In this document: positions 31,830 to 55,474 of the stretch, piece by piece | Numbering within the stretch: the stretch's first letter is position 1 | Layout of the letters: the number at the start of each line of letters is the position of its first letter | Origin: Thermoanaerobaculia bacterium | GTDB lineage: Bacteria > Acidobacteriota > Thermoanaerobaculia > UBA5066 | Assembly: GCA_022071945.1 (NCBI GenBank) | Contig: JAJVIN010000040.1 | Coordinates: 1-64,000 of the forward strand | Reading direction: 5' to 3' | DNA length: 64,000 bases | The notes under the pieces: model-generated | The model's database searches: none | What the model saw: only the letters and a program-made list of their open reading frames with translations | What the model was told of the DNA's origin: nothing | Program-made: the position numbers and the translations under genes

Positions 31830-34544
31830 TCAGGGTCGGGCTGCCTCGCTCTTTCCCGGCGGACTCGAGAGGCTCCGGGAGAGGTCGACGAGAAGCAGGT
31901 TCGGGCTCTGTTCGATGAGCGAGACGGTGACCCGCTTGCCGTCCGGCGAGATCGCGAAGGACTCGGCGGTCTCGTCGTCGGCGAGGGACACCAGCGGCCG
32001 GCGGGAAGGACGGGTGTCGCGGCCGGGGACGAAGTCCTGAACGAAAAGCTTCGCCTGTCCACGATCATCCAGGCCGACGAAGGCGATTCCCTTTCCATCT
32101 GGCGTGAACCGAGCCCGCCCGATGGTTCTCGGCCGCGTGCTGAGGGAAACCGGAATGGCCGGAACCTCGATCCGGATCGGCGCGGGCACCTCGGAGCCGT
32201 CCGTGAGCTTCACGACCCTGATCTCGCTCCAGCCGGGGTCGGGCGGCGTGTGGAACTGCACGTACTCCCCATCTGGCGATATCTCGGGACTCATCGTGTT
32301 GATCCCCGCGACCAGGCGCTTCTCGTCGCCGGTTTCGAGCGACTTTCTCCAGAGCCCGAGGCGCTCATCCCTTCCGCAGACCCAGACGAGCCACTTCCCG
32401 GCCTTGTCCACCGAGGGATTCTGGGCATCGAGCTCGTCCGAGGAGAGCTGCCTCGCCCCGTGTCCGTCCAGATCCGCCGCGAAGACCTCGAAGTGACCGG
32501 AGCGATTGGAGCTCCAATAGATGTTTTTTCCATCCGGGCTCGTCCAGGGATCCCAGTCGTCGCCGGGATCCTCCGTCAGACGCCGCACGCTCCCACCCGT
32601 CAGCGAGAGAGCCCAGAGATCCAGATTTCCGCTTCTACTGGAAGAGAAGATGACCCAGGCGCCGTCTCTCGAGTAGACGGGCTGGCGGTCGACGGCTCCG
32701 CCCCGAGAGAGCCAGCGGGCAGAGGCCCCGGTCTCGAGCGGGATCTCCCGGAGACTCTGCCGCAGGGAGAGCCCATCCAGGACGAGGGTCCCCGGCTTGA
32801 GAAAATCCACGGTCGTGACCTGCGTCGGGATCCAGGCGAGCGTCCTGACTTCTCCCGAATGGACGCTCTGTTCGACGAGCCGGCTCTGGGGCACGTAGGC
32901 CGTGACGGTGGACGATTGTGTGTAAGAGATCTCCTGTCCCTTGGGCGACCAAGCGGGCGCTGAGATGACGCCCTCGCCGGCTCTCTTCAGGGCTTTCGCG
33001 GCCCCGCTTTCGACATCGACGAGCAGGATCTCATCCGCAAGGAGCGCGAGCCGGCCCGATCGGACGACCGCGATGCTCTTCCCATCCGGGGACCACCGGG
33101 GAGTCACGAGAGGCGACGGACTCGCGGGTGCGAGCGGCCGCTCCTCGCCACCGGCCAGGTCGAGGATGAAAAGACCCCATTCGAGTCCCGACTTTCCCTG
33201 GGAGACCCTTGTGAAGACGACCCTCTGGCCATCTGGGGCCCAGTCGCCCGCCTCGGCTCGCTCCACGACCTTCCTCGGCTCTCCGCCGAGGATGGAGACC
33301 TTGTAGAGAGCGGAGTGCGACTCCTGCTGACCAGGACTCCCGCTGCTCGAACGGGTGAACAGGACGGACGATCCGTCGGGGGACACGCGGGGAAACCGGT
33401 CTGGACCCTCGGTGAGAGAGGCTTCACTCGCGGTCGCCGTCTGGTGGATCCAGACTCTCGGGACCCCCTCTCGCAGGGAGGTGAAGACGACGAGGGACCC
33501 ATCCGGCGAGGCGTCGGGAGCGGTGTCGTGGCCCGAAAACGTGAGGTAGGTCAGCTTCGGAGGAGAACTCCGGGTGGGGCCGGCAAGCCAGAGTGTCAAG
33601 AGAACGCTCGCGAAAGCGACGGCCAAGAGCGCGGAAGCCCAACCGGCAAGGTGCCAGCGCCGGCTTTTCCGGGGCAACCCCGCCGTCGCGATCGTCGAGC
33701 GCTGGGCGCCTGATTCCAGGGTCTGGAGATGAAAGGCCAGGTCGCTGGCGGACTGGTACCTCCGGGCGGGACGCTTCTCGAGGCACCGGGCCAGGATCGA
33801 GCCGAAGGCGGCCGGGAGCGGCCGGCCATCGGGCAGCAAAGGTTCGGGCGGGTCCTCGCGGAGAGCGGCCGACATCGTCTCGACGACCGACAGCCGGTCG
33901 AAGGGCCGCTTGCCCGTCACCATCTCGTAAAGGACGCATCCGAGGCTGAAGAGGTCGGAGCGGTGGTCGATTTCTCCCCCCTCGACCTGCTCCGGGGACA
34001 TGTACCCCGGTGTTCCGACGACGAGCCCCGGATCTGTCATGAGACTGCCTGCACGGGCCGACGCCGACACCGGCCGGACTAGCCCGAAATCGAGGATCTT
34101 CACCCGGTCATCCCGGGTCAGGAAGATGTTCTCGGGCTTGATGTCGCGGTGGACGATCCCGGCCGCATGCACGGCGGAAAGCCCCTCGGCGACACCGATC
34201 GCCACCCGGACGGCAAGGCGCAGGGGGAGCACCCCGCGGCCCAGACGCTCCCTCAGGGTCTCGCCGTGCAGAAGCTCGGTCACGAGATAGGCCACCCCGC
34301 CCTCTACGTCCGCGTCGAAGACCGTGAGGACATTGGGATGGTTGAGGGCCGAGGCAGCCCGGGCCTCGACGCCGAACCGCCTGAGCCGTTCGGGATCGAG
34401 AGCCAGCTCCTCGGGGAGCACCTTGATCGCGACCTCACGCCCCAGGCGAGGATCCGCGGCCCGGTATATCTCTCCCATGCCCCCTGATGCGAGGGGGGCG
34501 ACGATCTCGTACGGTCCGAACCGGGTTCCCGTCGCGATGGTCAT
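31830..34544 (-). CDS. Receptor Ser/Thr protein kinase with TolB/PD40 propeller
   Basis: The 904-residue protein starts with a PknB-type kinase domain (about 10-270): Gly-rich loop LASGGMGEIYRA, Lys41 in VAIK, catalytic HRDIKPEN, DFGLVRP and MSPEQVEGG. A single membrane helix (about 300-320) follows. The rest is a run of TolB/PD40-type propeller blades such as TFSGHDTAPDASPDGSLVVFTS and YSRDGAWVIFSSSRSGNLDLW. This architecture is strongly expanded in Acidobacteriota. The propeller is expected to sense a periplasmic signal. The DHH gene follows on the same strand after an 85-base gap. Confidence 0.93.
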   Translation of the reverse strand: MTIATGTRFGPYEIVAPLASGGMGEIYRAADPRLGREVAIKVLPEELALDPERLRRFGVEARAASALNHPNVLTVFDADVEGGVAYLVTELLHGETLRERLGRGVLPLRLAVRVAIGVAEGLSAVHAAGIVHRDIKPENIFLTRDDRVKILDFGLVRPVSASARAGSLMTDPGLVVGTPGYMSPEQVEGGEIDHRSDLFSLGCVLYEMVTGKRPFDRLSVVETMSAALREDPPEPLLPDGRPLPAAFGSILARCLEKRPARRYQSASDLAFHLQTLESGAQRSTIATAGLPRKSRRWHLAGWASALLAVAFASVLLTLWLAGPTRSSPPKLTYLTFSGHDTAPDASPDGSLVVFTSLREGVPRVWIHQTATASEASLTEGPDRFPRVSPDGSSVLFTRSSSGSPGQQESHSALYKVSILGGEPRKVVERAEAGDWAPDGQRVVFTRVSQGKSGLEWGLFILDLAGGEERPLAPASPSPLVTPRWSPDGKSIAVVRSGRLALLADEILLVDVESGAAKALKRAGEGVISAPAWSPKGQEISYTQSSTVTAYVPQSRLVEQSVHSGEVRTLAWIPTQVTTVDFLKPGTLVLDGLSLRQSLREIPLETGASARWLSRGGAVDRQPVYSRDGAWVIFSSSRSGNLDLWALSLTGGSVRRLTEDPGDDWDPWTSPDGKNIYWSSNRSGHFEVFAADLDGHGARQLSSDELDAQNPSVDKAGKWLVWVCGRDERLGLWRKSLETGDEKRLVAGINTMSPEISPDGEYVQFHTPPDPGWSEIRVVKLTDGSEVPAPIRIEVPAIPVSLSTRPRTIGRARFTPDGKGIAFVGLDDRGQAKLFVQDFVPGRDTRPSRRPLVSLADDETAESFAISPDGKRVTVSLIEQSPNLLLVDLSRSLSSPPGKSEAARP

Positions 34545-34564: not shown

Positions 34565-36334
34565 TCAGTCCTGACGTTCCACCGATTCTCCCCCGGATCT
34601 CTCCGCTTCATCGTATGCGGGAGGCAGCGCGGGCTGGCCACTCCCCTGCCCGATCACGAGCTGTTCCGAAAGCGAGGCCGCGAGCTCTTCCTCGCTCAGG
34701 GCGCCGACCGAACCGAGCTTGTAAAGAAGCCTGTCAACCATGGCCGAGAAGCGGGCCGACGGGATTCCGCTCGCAAATGCCGGCTGGTACTTGACCGGAC
34801 CGGGAATCAGCGTCACGAGAAACGAGATCTCGCGGGGCGAAAGCTCCCTTGGCTCCTTCCCGAAGTAGTGCCGGCTCGCCCGCCGCAGCCCATAGACTCC
34901 CGGGCCCCACTCGATGATGTTGAGGTAGATCTCGAGGATTCGCCGTTTCGAAAGGGATTTCTCGAGCAGGAGCGCGAGGCACAGCTCCTGGAGCTTCCGC
35001 CTGAGGGTCCGTTCCTTTCTCAAGAAGAGGTTCTTCGCCGTCTGCTGGGTGATCGTCGAGGCTCCGCGTGGCGGTCCGCCTCGCGTCAAGTTGAGCGACA
35101 GGGCAACCGGGATCGCCTCCAGATCGATGCCCGGGTGCGAGAAGAAGCTACTGTCCTCCGCGATCAAGAGGCTCCGGATAAAGAGGGGGGGTACGTCGTC
35201 GAATGCGATGAACGTGGGGGAACCGGCCGAAACCGGGAAGCGATACTCCTGCCCCTTGGGCCACTCGACGGTCTGGACGAACGGCCCTCTGTACCGGGCC
35301 AGGGCGTCAACGGCCCCGGAAGGAGGATCGAACTCGAGCCGATGGGTGACGGTCCAGGAATCCGGCCGCGTCAACGATCCCTGGATCTGGCCCGAGAAAC
35401 GCGCGGAGCCGAGATCCGAAACCGATCGGAGGGCCTCTGGCGGCTCGACTCCCGTCAGCGCCAGGAGGGTGGTCAGGTTCGCGGATGCGGCGTCGACGAC
35501 CCCCTCGATCCACACCTCGCCTTCCTCGAAAAGAAACCGCCCACGCCCATCGACCGAAAGCCCGGGAGCCCGCAGCGAAAGGCACGGAAACTCCATGCTT
35601 CCGGTCCTGGAAGTGCCCTCGAACGCGAGCTCGAGCCACTCGGGCGCCATGGGCTTCAGACCATGCCTTAGGCTTTCGATATCGGGGAATTCCACTCCGT
35701 CCGCGTGCAAGACGACGTTCGCCTGACGAGATCCCTCCTTGACGCCGAGCTCCGCGACTCCCGAGAACCGCCCTTTCTTCACCACGTCGTGTCCGCCCCG
35801 CCTGATTCGAAGCCAAGGTGCGATCTGGAGCCCCGCCGCGGTCAGACGAAGCGCGTTCCCCCCTTGCCGCTCCACCGCGAGATGCTCCGCTGTTCCCGCT
35901 CGAACGAGCCTCACTCCCCGGTGGTTCAGATCCCGCACCTCCCATTCCGCCTTGCCGGATTCGACCGAGATTCCCGACGGAAGACCGACGCGCAGTCCTT
36001 CGTACGCAAAGCCGCGGATCCGGTCGAGGAGCTTCTCTCCTTGAAGCGACCACTCGACGCGGAGGGTCCGAATCGACACGGCAACCGGTGCCCGCCGGAC
36101 CTCTAATTCCTGAAGCTCCAGGGGTCCCCTCCAGCGAAACCGGATCACCCCTACTCGCAACTCCACGCCCGCCCGGGCCGCCGCTTGCATCAGGCGCTCG
36201 CGAATTCGAGCCTCGACGAGCCGCGGCCCCTGGATGAAGGCGAACGCCAGGGTCCCGAGCAGGAGAAGGCTCGAGAGGAACAGGAGGGCAGGACCTAGTC
36301 GCCCTCCAAGACCGGGCCGGGTTTCGCGATCCAC
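34565..36334 (-). CDS. GT51 peptidoglycan glycosyltransferase with large N-terminal domain
   Basis: This protein of about 589 residues has one N-terminal membrane helix. A region of about 330 residues follows, resembling AsmA/DUF3971-like beta-strand repeats (ESGKAEWEVRDL, LRAPGLSVDGRGRFLFEEG). The C-terminal GT51 domain has motif IAEDSSFFSHPG with the catalytic Glu, RGASTITQQTAKNLFL, RKLQELCLALLLEKSLSKRRILEIYLN and IEWGPGVYGL. A transpeptidase domain is absent, so it is a monofunctional glycan polymerase with an unusual front. GTG at 36334 is the chosen start, with TACGAT 7 bases upstream; the longer open frame would run into the opposite-strand gene. Confidence 0.85.
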   Translation of the reverse strand: MDRETRPGLGGRLGPALLFLSSLLLLGTLAFAFIQGPRLVEARIRERLMQAAARAGVELRVGVIRFRWRGPLELQELEVRRAPVAVSIRTLRVEWSLQGEKLLDRIRGFAYEGLRVGLPSGISVESGKAEWEVRDLNHRGVRLVRAGTAEHLAVERQGGNALRLTAAGLQIAPWLRIRRGGHDVVKKGRFSGVAELGVKEGSRQANVVLHADGVEFPDIESLRHGLKPMAPEWLELAFEGTSRTGSMEFPCLSLRAPGLSVDGRGRFLFEEGEVWIEGVVDAASANLTTLLALTGVEPPEALRSVSDLGSARFSGQIQGSLTRPDSWTVTHRLEFDPPSGAVDALARYRGPFVQTVEWPKGQEYRFPVSAGSPTFIAFDDVPPLFIRSLLIAEDSSFFSHPGIDLEAIPVALSLNLTRGGPPRGASTITQQTAKNLFLRKERTLRRKLQELCLALLLEKSLSKRRILEIYLNIIEWGPGVYGLRRASRHYFGKEPRELSPREISFLVTLIPGPVKYQPAFASGIPSARFSAMVDRLLYKLGSVGALSEEELAASLSEQLVIGQGSGQPALPPAYDEAERSGGESVERQD

Positions 36335-36341
36335 CGTTTTG

Positions 36342-36347
36342 ATCGTA
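36342..36347 (-). promoter_or_regulatory. -10-like hexamer TACGAT of the GT51 gene
   Basis: TACGAT on the minus strand ends 7 bases before the GTG at 36334, with no Shine-Dalgarno. Confidence 0.4.
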
Positions 36348-36385
36348 CTTTGTAACGACCGGGGTGGTCCGGGCTGGAGGTTCTG

Positions 36386-36778
36386 ATGCGGCAGGAGACG
36401 GAGCTCGATGCAATGGACGATCTGATCCTGGGGCGTGGCGTCAAGAGGGGGCGTCACATCCTCGGAGAAGACGAGAGCTTTCTCTTCGTCGAGCGCCTGC
36501 CGCTCTGCGGTTTCGTTCCGAGGACGGTGTCCTCCGTCGAGATCGAGGCGGGTGTTCGCGTGCCGGCCTGGCACGTGGCCGGCCGGACCGTCGATTTCGG
36601 AATGGTGTTCTGGGAGATCTTCACCGACCGGACGAAGCGGAAGCTCTTCGGCTCGGAGGTGCGCAACGCCAAGGGCGACTGGGACATCCAGGTCGGCGCC
36701 GCTTCACCGGTGAGACTGTACGTCAACGCCTCGCTCCTGGAGCGCTACGACCCGTCGCGCCCGGTGGGGATGTACTGA
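36386..36778 (+). CDS. Conserved-looking hypothetical protein
   Basis: The 130-residue soluble protein starts at an ATG preceded by GGAGG at 5 bases. It has no signal peptide or membrane segment and is rich in beta-type sequence (FVPRTVSSVEIEAGVRVPAWHVAGRTVDFGMVFWEIF). No motif I recognise is present. Good ribosome site and codon use support a real gene. It converges with the zinc-ribbon gene. Confidence 0.6.
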   Translation: MRQETELDAMDDLILGRGVKRGRHILGEDESFLFVERLPLCGFVPRTVSSVEIEAGVRVPAWHVAGRTVDFGMVFWEIFTDRTKRKLFGSEVRNAKGDWDIQVGAASPVRLYVNASLLERYDPSRPVGMY

Positions 36779-37309: not shown

Positions 37310-38086
37310 TCAGCTGGCGGATCTGGTCTTCCCGGCCGCTGCCAGGGTCGACTTGACGATGTTCTCGAACTCGGCGCCGCCGTCGGGAAGGGCCGGTTCC
37401 TCCGGGTGCTCTTCGACCCACTCGAGCGCGAGGACCAATGGGAGCCACGCCTGACCTTCCCACGAGCGGCTGACGCGCTGGAGACCGGTCGAGAGCTTGA
37501 CCGGCATCGGGACGGTCTCGATACGTTCCGGCGCCGGGTCGGCGCAGAGTCCGCTCGGCGATGTGACGAGGTACTCGCGGCAGGCCAGCGGCCGGTCGGG
37601 GTGAATGGAGCAGCTCTCGTCCTCGAGAAAGGGACAGGCAATGCGAAGGTGGAAGTAGGAAAGCCCCACTTCGCGGCTGGTCTCTTTCGTCAGATCCGGC
37701 CCCGGCAGGAGTGTCCGGCGGAGCCCGGCTCCTTCCAGGGCAGTTCCGGCATCCTGGAAGCGTGACAGCACCCGTTTCCTGCGCTCATCAGGCAGCTCCT
37801 CGACGAGGAGAGCGAGGGCTCGCGCCTCGGAGGGGGCAATCGGCACGAGCTGGCGGCAGCAAGCTCCACATCCCTTCTGGCAGGAAACGGAAAGCCCCGC
37901 CCTCTGGACGGCCTTCTCGGCGGCATCCACGAAGGCGTTGGCGGCCGCTTGCAGGGACGGCAGGAGCCGGACCGGGTGGACCGGCCCCGCGGGCACCTCG
38001 AGCTCGAGCTGCACGGGCTCGCCGGAAACGGACAGGCGAGCCGACAGGTGGCGGAAGGCGGGCTCTGACGTCGTCTTCGGGCGCAT
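37310..38086 (-). CDS. YkgJ-family cysteine-cluster protein
   Basis: This 258-residue protein has the YkgJ/Fe-S-oxidoreductase pattern: CQKGCGACCRQLVPIAPSEA followed by CPFLEDESCSIHPDRPLACREY, a set of eight cysteines that probably binds a metal or Fe-S centre. Function of the family is poorly known. The chosen ATG at 38086 has TAGAAT 7 bases upstream and no Shine-Dalgarno; the frame stays open upstream opposite the sheath-partner gene, which I regard as a shadow. It stands alone between the zinc-ribbon gene and the divergent sheath operon. Confidence 0.82.
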   Translation of the reverse strand: MRPKTTSEPAFRHLSARLSVSGEPVQLELEVPAGPVHPVRLLPSLQAAANAFVDAAEKAVQRAGLSVSCQKGCGACCRQLVPIAPSEARALALLVEELPDERRKRVLSRFQDAGTALEGAGLRRTLLPGPDLTKETSREVGLSYFHLRIACPFLEDESCSIHPDRPLACREYLVTSPSGLCADPAPERIETVPMPVKLSTGLQRVSRSWEGQAWLPLVLALEWVEEHPEEPALPDGGAEFENIVKSTLAAAGKTRSAS

Positions 38087-38121: not shown

Positions 38122-38151
38122 TTGACACCTGAGCAAGGCGGTCGCTAGACT
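38122..38151 (+). promoter_or_regulatory. Sigma70-type promoter of the sheath gene pair
   Basis: TTGACA (38122-38127) and TAGACT (38146-38151) are 18 bases apart. It is the best -35/-10 pair in the window and would give a leader of about 79 bases before the gene at 38237. Confidence 0.6.
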
Positions 38152-38236: not shown

Positions 38237-39019
38237 ATGGAAGCTGAATTCACCACCCGCCGGCTCCTCGTCCTGAGAAAGCTGACCCGGGCCGTCTCCG
38301 AGGCACTGAAGACCCAGCTGAAGGGTCACCTCGCCACGGTTCAACCCTTGCTGCGGCCCCGCACGGTGTTCGGCGAGTTCGTGCAGAGCACGGTCAAGGA
38401 GGTCGTGAAGGGCTCCGACAAGTCCTTCAAGGAGCTTCAGACCCTCTTTGACAGCGTCGTTCGGGACAAACCCTTCCTCTTGAACCGGGGTCTGGCCGCG
38501 CCGTTCGAGGTCGACAGCACGGCCCTCGAGATCACTCCGTTCGAGTACCGGCACATCGCCCGAGGTCCGCAGGATCAAGAATCCAAGCCCATCCAGATCA
38601 CCTGTCCCCTGAAGTGGGTCCTCAACTACAACAACTTCGGCCTGGGCCGCCTCAGAGAGGTCCTCAACGACCGCGCCCGCTCGGCCGACGACGTCTACCG
38701 GATCACGCTTCACCTCACCCTGCTCAACAGCGTTTTTTCGCTGCAGCCGGGGGTCGTTTCGCTCCTCGAGTCTCTTCGGTTTTTCGTCAAGACCGAGAGG
38801 TGGCCGGAATTCGGCTCCCTGCCGATCACGTGCATCACGACACCCGTAACGACCCTGCGTCCGCCCGACGGCGTCATCATCGAGAGCACCGAGATCTCGG
38901 GCAGCGACACCTTCGAGGAAATCGTCAGGACCGAGGACATCTCGAAGCTGCGTGATCCGTTCCGCGACAAGCTGATCGAGCTCGTCGAAGCCCATGACGC
39001 GACGCTGCTCGCGGGTTGA
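38237..39019 (+). CDS. Unknown protein paired with the contractile sheath gene
   Basis: The 260-residue soluble protein has a helical basic front (about 1-75) and a mixed C-terminal part with CPLKWVLNYNNFGLGRLREVLND and LPITCITTPVTTLRPPDGVIIEST. I recognise no domain. It stands 15 bases before the TssBC-type gene on the same strand, behind a good promoter, so it is probably a partner of the sheath (baseplate, cap or chaperone). It has no signal peptide. The ATG lacks a strong Shine-Dalgarno; only GAGG lies 10 bases upstream. Confidence 0.65.
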   Translation: MEAEFTTRRLLVLRKLTRAVSEALKTQLKGHLATVQPLLRPRTVFGEFVQSTVKEVVKGSDKSFKELQTLFDSVVRDKPFLLNRGLAAPFEVDSTALEITPFEYRHIARGPQDQESKPIQITCPLKWVLNYNNFGLGRLREVLNDRARSADDVYRITLHLTLLNSVFSLQPGVVSLLESLRFFVKTERWPEFGSLPITCITTPVTTLRPPDGVIIESTEISGSDTFEEIVRTEDISKLRDPFRDKLIELVEAHDATLLAG

Positions 39020-39034
39020 GACAGGAGAAAGGCC

Positions 39035-40387
39035 ATGACTGAGTCAACGTTCGGCGGGTTCAACATCAAGCTCGGAGGCGCGGGTGACGCCGGCCGTCCA
39101 CTCGACAGCTCGGCACCGTTTCGAGTCCTCTTCCTCGGCGACTTCAGCGGCCGGGCGGCCAAGGGAACCCTCGAGACGGGACGCGTCCTGGGCAAGAGGA
39201 AGATCTGGGCCATCGACGCCGACGACGTCTCCGACGTTTTCGAGACCCTGGACGTCTCGATTCCCGTTCGCGCGGCCGGGGCCGTCCTGAGGATTCGCGA
39301 CATCGAGGGTTTCCACCCCGATCAGATCTTCGAGGCTGTCCCCCGCTTCGGGGACCTCAAGGACGCGGAGGACTCGGCCCGCACCCGCCGCTCCGAGAGG
39401 CGGATCCCCTCCGGCGGGTTCCTGGATCAGATCCTGTCGGGGAAGCCGGATCTCGAGGCGCCCAAGGAACCCGAGCCCGAGGCCGGCGAGACGCCCACGA
39501 GCCTGATGCGGACGATCCTCCGCGACCCCGCCTTCCGTTCCGTCGAGATGTCGTGGCGGTCCGTCGACTTCCTCAGGCGGCGGCTCGACCTGGAAGAGGG
39601 CCCCGCCCTCTACATTCTCGACATCTCGCTCGAGGAGATCCGGAAGGACCTCGAGACGGAAGATCTTCAAAAGACCGGCCTCTTCGAGATCCTCGTGACG
39701 CGCACGGTCGGGACGCCCGGCCAGCATGCCTGGGCGATCGCGTGCCTGCTCGAGACGCTCGGCAAAGACCCGGCGGATGCCGAGCTCCTCGCGAAGCTGA
39801 CGATGATCGCCTCGATCGCCAGGACGAGCGTTCTGTCGGGAGCCGACTCGACGCTTGCCGGGTGCCCCTCTTTCGAGACTCACCCGAGCCTGGAGGACTG
39901 GGCCGAAGGCCCTCCGCGAGAGGTCCGCGCCACCTGGGATGCCATCCGGCAGATGCCCGAGTCTCGTTATCTGGGGCTGGTCATGCCCCGGCTCCTCCTG
40001 AGGCTTCCGTACGGCAAGAAGTCGGACTCCGTGGATTGCTTCGAGTTCGAGGAGGTCGACTATCCGCCCCAGCACGAGGACCTCTTGTGGGGTCCGGGCT
40101 CTGTCGCGGCGGCCTGCCTCATCGCGCGCGCCTTCCAGCGTGATGGCTGGGACTTGAAGCCCGGTTCGGAGCAGGATCTAGAGAATCTCCCCTACCTGAC
40201 CTACAAGGACAAGACAGAGACCGTCGCCGTTCCCTGCGCCGAGGCCGTCCTGACGGTCAAGGCGGCCGAACGCCTGATCGCCCTGGGCTTCATGCCTCTC
40301 CTGTCGATGAAGGGACGGGACGAAGCCCGCCTGGGGATGACTCAGTCGTTCACGGCACGGCCACTCGCCGGCCCCTGGCGAAGCTAG
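39035..40387 (+). CDS. TssB-TssC fused contractile sheath protein (type VI-like)
   Basis: This 450-residue protein joins a TssB-like front to a TssC-like body. FRVLFLGDFSGR and FHPDQIFEAVPRFGDL (about 27-110) match TssB/VipA. SWRSVDFLRRRLDLEE, YLGLVMPRLLLRLPYGKKS, FEFEEVDYPPQHEDLLWG and a late LIALGFMPLLSMKGRDEA match TssC/VipB. A variable linker (about 110-150) lies between. Ordinary T6SS encode TssB and TssC separately; fused sheaths occur in divergent contractile systems. AGGAG precedes the ATG. No other tss gene (TssA, TssK, TssM, ClpV, Hcp, VgrG) is visible in this window. Confidence 0.85.
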   Translation: MTESTFGGFNIKLGGAGDAGRPLDSSAPFRVLFLGDFSGRAAKGTLETGRVLGKRKIWAIDADDVSDVFETLDVSIPVRAAGAVLRIRDIEGFHPDQIFEAVPRFGDLKDAEDSARTRRSERRIPSGGFLDQILSGKPDLEAPKEPEPEAGETPTSLMRTILRDPAFRSVEMSWRSVDFLRRRLDLEEGPALYILDISLEEIRKDLETEDLQKTGLFEILVTRTVGTPGQHAWAIACLLETLGKDPADAELLAKLTMIASIARTSVLSGADSTLAGCPSFETHPSLEDWAEGPPREVRATWDAIRQMPESRYLGLVMPRLLLRLPYGKKSDSVDCFEFEEVDYPPQHEDLLWGPGSVAAACLIARAFQRDGWDLKPGSEQDLENLPYLTYKDKTETVAVPCAEAVLTVKAAERLIALGFMPLLSMKGRDEARLGMTQSFTARPLAGPWRS

Positions 40388-41129
40388 AATCGTCGGATCC
40401 GATCCGCTCGGCCACGATGACGGTGATGTTGTCGTGGCCGCCGTTTTTCAGGGCCTCGTCGACGAGCATCTGGCAGATCTCCTCGGGAGTGCCTGGCGCC
40501 CCGAGAACCCGGGCCAGAGACTCCTGATCGATCTCCCCCGACAGGCCGTCGGTGCAGAGCAAGAGCCGGTGCCCCGGCCGCATGCGGCACCTCACGACTT
40601 CCGGGTTTGCCTCGTCCGGCATGCCGACGTATCCGGTCACGTACGACCTCGTGTCCTCGTATCCCGGGTCGACGGCCGGAGCGGCGCCGCTCTCGAGAAG
40701 AAGGCGATGCAGACTGTGGTCGCGCGTCAAGAGCAAGAGGTCGCCCCGGTTCCACAGGTAGGCCCGGCTGTCGCCGAGATGGCAGATGACGGCCTCGTCA
40801 TCGAGCAGAACCGCCGCCACCACGGTCGATCCCATCCCGTCGAGAGACGAGCTCTCCTTGGCCTCCTCGTACAGACCGTGACTGAGGGTGCTGACGGTCC
40901 ACAGCAGAGCATTCCGGACGGCCGTCGGGCCCCACTCGCCCGTGCCGAGCCGCTTCTTCAGGATCTGAGGCAGGGAAGTGGCGACCTTCCAGGACGCCAT
41001 GTCCCCGGCGGGCTGTCCCCCCAGACCGTCAGCGACGACGAGGATCCTGTGACTCTCCTCGATCGAGTAAGAGTCCTCGTTGCGCTCCCTCACGCAACCG
41101 AGATGCGTTGTCCCGGCGAAAACCCACAC
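40350..41129 (-). CDS. PP2C-type Ser/Thr protein phosphatase
   Basis: The 259-residue PPM/PP2C phosphatase has the metal-binding and core motifs RNEDSY, VVADGLGGQPAGD, GMGSTVVA, HLGDSRAYLW, CTDGLS and GGHDNITVIV. It is about the size of Stp1/PrpC. Its start is a GTG. It is convergent with the sheath gene and their 3' ends overlap by 38 bases. PP2C phosphatases (PppA) regulate some T6SS by reversing kinase phosphorylation, so a link with the sheath is possible, but the window's kinases could also be its partners. Confidence 0.93.
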   Translation of the reverse strand: MWVFAGTTHLGCVRERNEDSYSIEESHRILVVADGLGGQPAGDMASWKVATSLPQILKKRLGTGEWGPTAVRNALLWTVSTLSHGLYEEAKESSSLDGMGSTVVAAVLLDDEAVICHLGDSRAYLWNRGDLLLLTRDHSLHRLLLESGAAPAVDPGYEDTRSYVTGYVGMPDEANPEVVRCRMRPGHRLLLCTDGLSGEIDQESLARVLGAPGTPEEICQMLVDEALKNGGHDNITVIVAERIGSDDSSFARGRRVAVP

Positions 41130-54034: not shown

Positions 54035-55474
54035 CTACTCGAGCGACTTCACCAGCTCTTGCGGGGAAAGAAACGACTCCGCGACGAGGGCTGGCCTTCC
54101 GGCCCTCACCGCAACGACGCGCTCCACTTGCTTGCCTCCTGCAGCCGCGCATTTCAAGACCACCCGGTAGCGGCCCGCCGGAATCGGAGCCAGCAGCATG
54201 GGAGTCGTCGCGCCGGACGGGAGAGCGAGCGGACGCCTGGAGTCCTCTTCGGTGATGGAGACAATCGACGCATAAGGTGTCGCAAGCACCTGAAGCGTAC
54301 CCGAAACGGATCCGTCCGGCTTGATCTCGCCGCCTTCGCGGGTGTCAGGGAACTCGCCTTGCTTCGTTTCGCCGGGCGGGCCGAAGGCCCGATACCCGAG
54401 CCACACGGTGGCGCCGGCAAGGACCAGAAGCGCGGCAGCGGTCAAGAGCAGCCGGCGGCGTTCCTCCCTGCCCATGGCCCCCGGTGTCTGGCCGCCGGCC
54501 ACGAGCGAGGTCGCCTGGGTTTCCGTGACCCTCTCGCTCTCCGCCAGGGCCGTGACACCCGAGAGCTTGACCGTGCCGCCGGACCTCAGTGCCGAGACCA
54601 GTCCATCCACGATCTCGCGATAGGTCTGGGGCCGGTTCTCCCGCTTCTTCTCGAGCATGCGGCCGATCAGCCGGACGAGGTCCATCGGGAGCGCCGGCAT
54701 GCCGGCGGGCGCGGCCACCGGCGGAGGCGCGTGATTCAGGTGCGCCGCGATGTACTCCACCGGAGCCTTTCCTTCGAACGGCCTGTGGCCGGAGAGGACC
54801 TCGAAAAAGATGACTCCGAGGCTGTAGACGTCGCTCAACCAGTCGACATCGGCTCCGGGCCCCATGTAGCCGAGCTGTTCCGGAGAGCCATACGCGACCT
54901 TCCCGAGGAAGAACCCGGTCGCCGTCAGCGACTGGGCCGGGCGGCTCTCGAACATCTTGGCGATTCCGAAGTCGAGAAGCTTGACGATCTTCTCTCCCCC
55001 CGAGTCGACGACGAAAACATTGTCGGGTGAGAGATCCCGATGGACGATCCCCCGCGAGGCGAGGACCTCGAGTCCGTGGGCCGCCTGGATCAAGAGGGGC
55101 AAGGACTCCTGGTACGGGCGGCCGGCGTAGGCGCCGATCGAGACTCCGTCCAGGAACTCCATGGCGAGGTAGGGCGTCCCGTCGTCCTCGCCGATCTCGA
55201 AAAACGAGACGATGTTGACGTGCAGGAGGCTCTTGAGGATCTCGGCCTCTCGCGTGAACCGGACCCGGGCTTCCGCCAGATGGGGAGCATCCTCCGTGCG
55301 TGACGTCTCCGTTTCCCGGATCACCTTGAGCGCGACGGTCCGTCCGTCGCGCTCGTCCACGGCCTTGTAGACGACGCCCATGCCACCCCGGCCGACCCGG
55401 TGGAGGATCCGGTAATGGGCAATCCTCTCGACCGTGGCGGGGGGCATCGAGGCCGGCGGAGAATCGCCGCTCAC
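54035..55474 (-). CDS. Receptor-type Ser/Thr protein kinase
   Basis: The 479-residue protein has a PknB-type kinase domain (about 20-290): VGRGGMGVVYKA, Lys in VALKVI, HRDLSPDN and DFGIAK, then YGSPEQ. A membrane helix (about 350-370) and a C-terminal domain of about 105 residues follow. That domain has beta-type sequence with GTLQVLATPYASIVSITEED and PIPAGRYRVVLKCAA, which resembles a PEGA domain. The ATG overlaps the stop of the 1020-residue secreted protein gene (ATGA), so the two are co-translated. Confidence 0.92.
   Translation of the reverse strand: MSGDSPPASMPPATVERIAHYRILHRVGRGGMGVVYKAVDERDGRTVALKVIRETETSRTEDAPHLAEARVRFTREAEILKSLLHVNIVSFFEIGEDDGTPYLAMEFLDGVSIGAYAGRPYQESLPLLIQAAHGLEVLASRGIVHRDLSPDNVFVVDSGGEKIVKLLDFGIAKMFESRPAQSLTATGFFLGKVAYGSPEQLGYMGPGADVDWLSDVYSLGVIFFEVLSGHRPFEGKAPVEYIAAHLNHAPPPVAAPAGMPALPMDLVRLIGRMLEKKRENRPQTYREIVDGLVSALRSGGTVKLSGVTALAESERVTETQATSLVAGGQTPGAMGREERRRLLLTAAALLVLAGATVWLGYRAFGPPGETKQGEFPDTREGGEIKPDGSVSGTLQVLATPYASIVSITEEDSRRPLALPSGATTPMLLAPIPAGRYRVVLKCAAAGGKQVERVVAVRAGRPALVAESFLSPQELVKSLE

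Follow-up and report, generated by a model that had tools for sequence, protein, structure and literature searches.

A fused TssB-TssC protein lacking the inner sheath domain accompanies canonical type VI secretion systems and may act on ClpV

The window, a stretch of 64,000 nucleotides of contig JAJVIN010000040.1 from a Thermoanaerobaculia bacterium (GCA_022071945.1), carries at 38237-40387 two codirectional open reading frames separated by 15 bases. The second encodes a protein related to both contractile-sheath subunits of the type VI secretion system (T6SS). The features of the locus are:

38122..38151, + strand: sigma70-like promoter match TTGACA-N18-TAGACT (10/12), in the divergent intergenic region
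38237..39019, + strand: partner gene, 260 aa, of a T6SS-linked family without a named domain
39035..40387, + strand: fused TssB-TssC-N gene, 450 aa, lacking VipB_2 and representing a short form of the TssCL-type family
39104..39394, + strand: TssB-like part, residues 24-120; VipA match and profile match to solved TssB chains
39419..39436, + strand: linker helix FLDQIL at residues 129-134, which aligns to the LLDEII-motif helix through which TssC binds ClpV
39482..40384, + strand: N-terminal sheath domain of TssC (residues 150-450), limited to domains 2 and 3, with the gpW/gp25-like domain 1 absent

Both open reading frames are real genes, given their homologues and their dN/dS values, which between two closer relatives were 0.16 for the partner and 0.18 for the fusion (purifying selection). 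Identity to the homologues in G005, a genome of the same family, is 59% for the partner and 42% for the fusion, compared with 80% for TssC. The first-pass annotation had placed the pair behind the best sigma70-like promoter of the window; this is literally right, as the match tops the only two found window-wide, a number not above chance expectation. It had also stated that the other tss genes are absent here. A scan of window proteins near the pair found none, and the neighbouring proteins scanned showed no further T6SS domain that would indicate tube, baseplate or spike genes belonging to the locus itself.

Upstream of the partner gene and divergent from it lies a CxxCxxCC-domain gene (37310-38086, - strand). 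G005 has the same divergent neighbour, which shows that the locus is conserved on this side and that it is the T6SS side that has moved away. At the other end, a convergent Stp1-like PP2C phosphatase gene (40350-41129, - strand) overlaps the 3' end of the fusion gene tail to tail. The window also contains Ser/Thr kinase genes, for example at 31830-34544 (with a WD40-like propeller) and 54035-55474, and a gene at 34565-36574 (- strand) whose product has a C-terminal peptidoglycan transglycosylase domain after a long N-terminal region matching no recognised family.

A T6SS is encoded elsewhere in the same genome. Contig C48 (20553-42305) encodes TssK, TssL, TssM, TagF, Hcp, TagJ, TssA, TssE, TssF, TssG, ClpV, VgrG, and separate TssB and TssC, the latter with VipB_2 and being the only full TssC of the genome; tssG was recovered as a tblastn match (62% identity) that closes the interval from tssF to clpV. 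Contigs C2 and C32 hold two additional VgrG-type genes. The suggestion that the locus is a reduced or scattered contractile injection machine was therefore rejected, since a core T6SS cluster with separate TssB and TssC is present on C48. The first-pass annotation had named two observations that together would count against its reading, a standard T6SS with separate TssB and TssC elsewhere in the genome and no recurrence of the pair in other species; the former is what we found, whereas the latter does not hold, as the genes are also present in other species. Without the part needed for sheath building, but with the helix recognised by ClpV, the fusion is probably a helper of the complete T6SS elsewhere in the genome, rather than a machine in its own right.

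The presence of TssB-like and TssC-like parts in one chain, proposed from the sequence at the outset, was confirmed by Pfam, with VipB matching residues 156-438 (E 2.1e-46) and T6SS_VipA matching residues 27-110 (E 3.9e-5, a value equal to the curated cut-off), and by comparison of a fusion-family profile with solved chains (E down to 4.9e-10 for TssB and 1.5e-61 for TssC). What had been missed is that the TssC part consists of the N-terminal sheath domain alone, the C-terminal VipB_2 being absent. Across 21 aligned family members, VipA and VipB were found in all and VipB_2 in none, and a search of 396 genomes for VipB_2 returned from the fusion-bearing genomes only the canonical gene (in the window genome, on C48 and not on C31). 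Against NCBIfam TIGR03355, which represents canonical TssC, the fusion scored 140.9 bits, below the cut-off of 271.5. Its AlphaFold2 model (mean pLDDT 87, pTM 0.86) superposes on TssC residues 61-396 only (Z ~30) and ends before domain 1. The place expected for the TssB handshake strand, residues 1-20, is predicted to be disordered (pLDDT 36-40). In fold comparisons, both parts also align to the single-chain sheaths of other contractile systems.

Sheath cohesion depends on a handshake sheet to which TssC contributes strands beta11-13 and TssB its N-terminal strand (PMC5807055), and ClpV recognises the TssC N-terminal helix (PMC5807055; PMC5813253). The equivalents of beta11-13 fall in the part missing from the fusion, and domains 2 and 3, including the outer layer recognised by ClpV, are retained. 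With the tube-binding and handshake domain VipB_2 missing in all 21 members, the fusion is no ordinary sheath subunit and should not be able to enter the sheath lattice in the usual way. The database name "contractile sheath large subunit" for these proteins is misleading. Canonical TssB/VipA and TssC/VipB are homologous to the fusion in the outer sheath domains (2 and 3), but are two chains that include VipB_2 (domain 1), whereas the fusion is one chain without it and belongs to a separate clade.

In a sample of 396 genomes spread over the phylum, canonical TssC, as detected by VipB_2, is present in 59, taken as T6SS-positive. The fusion occurs in 20/59 of these and in 0/337 T6SS-negative genomes (Fisher p 1e-18, not corrected for relatedness). 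The first-pass suggestion of a sheath put to a new use thus holds in outline, for a protein without the sheath core that is conserved and found only alongside canonical TssC. The term "orphan" is true of the window genome, but in relatives the fusion lies inside or beside the T6SS cluster: it shares a contig with canonical tssC, about 1 to 20 kb apart, in G005, G256, G394, G341, G215, G307 and G155 as well as in the same-family genomes G003 and G011. It adjoins vgrG/PAAR genes in G003, G005, G011, G009, G155 and the roseobacters, and tssB/tssC/tssK in some other genomes. In the window genome and in 12 genomes of one other family it is unlinked to T6SS genes, its neighbours in that family being GidA, ParA-like and PilZ genes. 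Maximum-likelihood trees placed 19 fusions, 2 of them from Rhodobacterales, on one branch apart from canonical TssC (100/100), and this branch holds with the TssC-core columns alone. A match was also found in Planctomycetota (G454, E 4.5e-154), and IMG/VR viral contigs yielded no relatives that would suggest a viral origin.

A very divergent VipA-VipB fusion of 594 aa is encoded in G045 (L059:8074-9858) beside separate tssB and tssC, next to a gene for a 702-aa protein without a Pfam domain (L059:5958-8066). Distant TssBC-like genes similar to that of G045 are present in G267 and G249.

The closest published relative of the window fusion is TssCL of roseobacters (Leisingera, Ruegeria and relatives; PMC9515649). 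TssCL and the window protein share the fusion of VipA and VipB without VipB_2, accompany a full T6SS with separate TssB and TssC, and fall in one clade that excludes canonical TssC. They differ in that TssCL proteins are 1000-1700 aa long, with a long acidic N-terminal region rich in (LIV)LxxL motifs and a C-terminal acidic tail, whereas the window protein is a 450-aa core with a single motif and no long acidic N-terminal repeat region. On Rhodobacterales plasmids the fusion is contained in proteins of 1063 and 1370 aa, encoded between clpV and vgrG. The roseobacter fusions at L169:11592-15704 and L171:6459-9650 contain 28 and 11 (LIV)LxxL motifs within acidic regions of ~780 and ~490 residues, far above the shuffled expectation; for the 28 motifs in the acidic N-terminal tail of the Leisingera fusion, that expectation was 2.8. 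The accessible text of the TssCL description makes no mention of these motifs. It does report TssCL in Alphaproteobacteria only and takes it as a more recent event (PMC9515649), a view contradicted by the homologues in Acidobacteriota and Planctomycetota, which show that the family is wider.

ImpD/TssC40 of Agrobacterium and Rhizobium is a second, non-redundant TssC homologue beside canonical TssB/TssC, and in Agrobacterium is required for Hcp secretion (PMC3702570). The Rhizobium etli ImpD (L170:5926-7314) contains VipB and VipB_2 but no TssB part and no TssC N-terminal helix, a truncation opposite to that of the fusion. Membership of the same family was rejected, given that VipB_2 is present and VipA absent.

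The linker between the two parts of the fusion is otherwise variable, and contains an amphipathic L/V/F-x-x-I/L-L helix in 21/21 members. In the window protein this helix (FLDQIL) lies outside the folded domains, on a low-confidence linker of the model. The profile aligns it with the N-terminal helix of TssC, which reads SLLDEIL in Myxococcus xanthus (alignment segment SLLDEILSEAKL). The corresponding ClpV-binding motif of Vibrio cholerae TssC is 19-LLDEIM-24, and ClpV proteins form two classes according to groove residues 6 and 87, with TssC helices following the class (PMC4239648). For an Escherichia coli TssC1 peptide carrying this helix, the reported KD is 26 uM (PMC5048182).

We read the ClpV groove, the TssC helix and the fusion helix in fusion-bearing genomes, 17 without the R/D groove pair and 6 with R6/D87. 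In the former, the groove residues are Y/A in the window genome and mostly L/A or L/G in the others, and the fusion helices are FLDQIL, LLDRIL, LLDAIL, LLGQIL and similar. In the latter (G215, G341, G307, G155, Leisingera and Qingshengfaniella), they are TLGRLLG, TLERLLG, AVQRLLG, TLSRLLG, AFQQLIG and DFQRLIG, similar to the (D/E)FxxLL helix found in the TssC of the same genome. Position 1 of the helix is a large hydrophobic residue in 16/17 genomes without the R/D pair (by reading) and 0/6 with it, a covariation that comes from few independent lineages, with probably at least 2 acquisitions of the charged type. Exceptional or doubtful cases are G461 (FLLEDLKQ), G451 and G318, and the ClpV of G012 was unreadable. 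Since the fusion tree does not join the two charged-class groups as sisters, the match between helix and groove probably arose at least twice. The N-domain of Pseudomonas aeruginosa ClpV1, which belongs to the charged-groove class, shows no direct binding to the TssC helix, ClpV recruitment being attributed there to TagJ (PMC4239648); the charged-class fusion helix may thus have another receptor.

For the 260-aa protein, no domain had been recognised at first inspection, and nothing exceeded the cut-off in Pfam, NCBIfam or PHROG. Its AlphaFold2 model (mean pLDDT 89) gave no fold match below E 0.001 by Foldseek against PDB and BFVD, and VIA Z-scores were <4; phage neck/terminator proteins are included among the weak, non-significant matches of both searches. 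Comparison with Pvc16_N by hhalign was negative (probability 0.2%) and gave no support to a Pvc16-type terminator. Homologues come from Acidobacteriota, Planctomycetota, Nitrosospira, Sedimenticola and a Chromatiales MAG. Their genes often have T6SS surroundings, being flanked by clpV and vgrG in L131, adjacent to tssA in L127, ahead of tssA-tssB-tssC in L134 and behind tssM in L135. All 6 partner-bearing genomes of the phylum sample are T6SS-positive. This is a new T6SS-linked family spanning at least 3 phyla. Two copies lie close together in both G012 (L054:3135-4830) and G001 (L049:95-2584).

The first-pass description of this protein as a partner stands as regards its T6SS linkage, but most fusion genomes lack the 260-aa family. 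The 396 genomes contain the fusion in 20 cases, the partner in 6 and both in 3, and an obligate pair was rejected on these counts. The two do co-occur within the family of the window genome. In a separate set of 13 genomes, chosen for having the partner, the fusion was near full-length in 6, in two contig-end pieces in 1 and present as partial or divergent copies in 2, the remainder having canonical TssC only (3) or neither (1). This association is no more than suggestive (p 0.009 when both uncertain copies are counted). No divergent partner homologue was found beside the fusions of other families in the loci examined. We regard the 260-aa protein as a further accessory of the T6SS that probably works at the same step as the fusion.

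We tentatively propose, at a little short of an even chance, that the fusion is a ClpV-facing, non-polymerising sheath mimic that modulates the recycling of the resident T6SS sheath. It would represent one TssB-TssC protomer in a single chain, an accessory paralogue of the sheath from which the inner domain, with the handshake strands and the Hcp tube contact, has been removed, and which has kept the outer layer and an exposed TssC-type helix. Having lost the inner domain, it would be unable to polymerise as a normal sheath ring. The linker helix would dock it on the ClpV recycling machinery, so that ClpV would be recruited, titrated or regulated, and sheath subunits might be capped or chaperoned; as a result, when or how sheaths are taken apart would change. 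The proposal draws on the architecture, the conservation seen in the dN/dS values, the strict confinement to genomes with a canonical T6SS, the grouping in one clade, the proximity to clpV and vgrG in relatives, and the covariation between helix and ClpV groove class. That the fusion would bind ClpV, and in which direction and when it would act, is what we infer from these sequence comparisons. A similar role in coupling ClpV to the sheath has been proposed for TagJ/HsiE1, the ClpV-sheath adaptor of some T6SS (PMC4239648), which is of the ImpE family and unrelated in sequence. TagJ is also encoded in the C48 cluster, which counts against the ClpV model, as does the vgrG/PAAR linkage beside clpV, which would also fit a role on the spike or baseplate side.

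There is a lesser but real chance that the fusion is an end piece, which by itself or together with the 260-aa protein would cap the sheath, terminate it or adapt its distal end. A protein that keeps domains 2 and 3 and has lost the linkers, and so lacks handshake donors, could stop polymerisation and mark the last ring, as do gp15 in phages and Pvc16 in extracellular injection systems. The composition of the T6SS distal end is not settled (PMC5813253), and the weak matches of the partner to neck/terminator proteins point the same way. However, those matches are not significant, the Pvc16_N comparison was negative, and TssA, a known distal-end protein, is already encoded on C48; a terminator would also leave the conserved helix and its covariation with ClpV unexplained. 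Less probable again is that the fusion and the partner help to mount VgrG-PAAR spikes or specific effectors. The vgrG/PAAR neighbours of the fusion described above and the partner gene between clpV and vgrG in L131 are consistent with this reading, but the fusion is unlinked to T6SS genes in the 12 genomes of one family, lies beside tssB/tssC/tssK in others, and contains no detected adaptor domain.

That the fusion is a functional sheath subunit, mixing with TssB/TssC or building its own short sheath, appears improbable: the uniform loss of VipB_2 and the predicted disorder of the TssB N-terminal strand region weigh against it, despite clear homology to both subunits, the alignment of single-chain sheaths over both parts, and the TssCL paper, which leaves this possibility open (PMC9515649). 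A functionless relic of a duplicated sheath gene is barely credible. The protein is shorter than TssC and evolves fast, as its identity to the G005 homologue indicates, but the low dN/dS, open frames throughout the phylum, invariant residues and a single ancient clade refute decay in practice.

Within the open-access literature, TssCL is the only published account of such fusions that we found, and we met no description of a short form from outside Alphaproteobacteria, of domain 1 being consistently lost, of a helix matched to the ClpV class or of the partner family. In that account the fusions are a recent roseobacter oddity and possible sheath subunits; here they form an older family of several phyla that should be unable to build sheaths in the usual way. 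The fusion data point to ClpV as a testable target. Held more loosely than the ClpV-facing role itself, and possible rather than probable, is the wider picture of an ancient non-polymerising sheath mimic that, in several phyla, controls ClpV-driven recycling through a class-matched helix and in roseobacters has become a multivalent ClpV sponge bearing dozens of docking motifs. How sheath disassembly is timed, and how growing sheaths are spared, is a standing question, on which a soluble mimic with a class-matched helix would give a direct handle. If true, this would be a previously undescribed level of T6SS control, accompanied by a new partner family associated with the T6SS.
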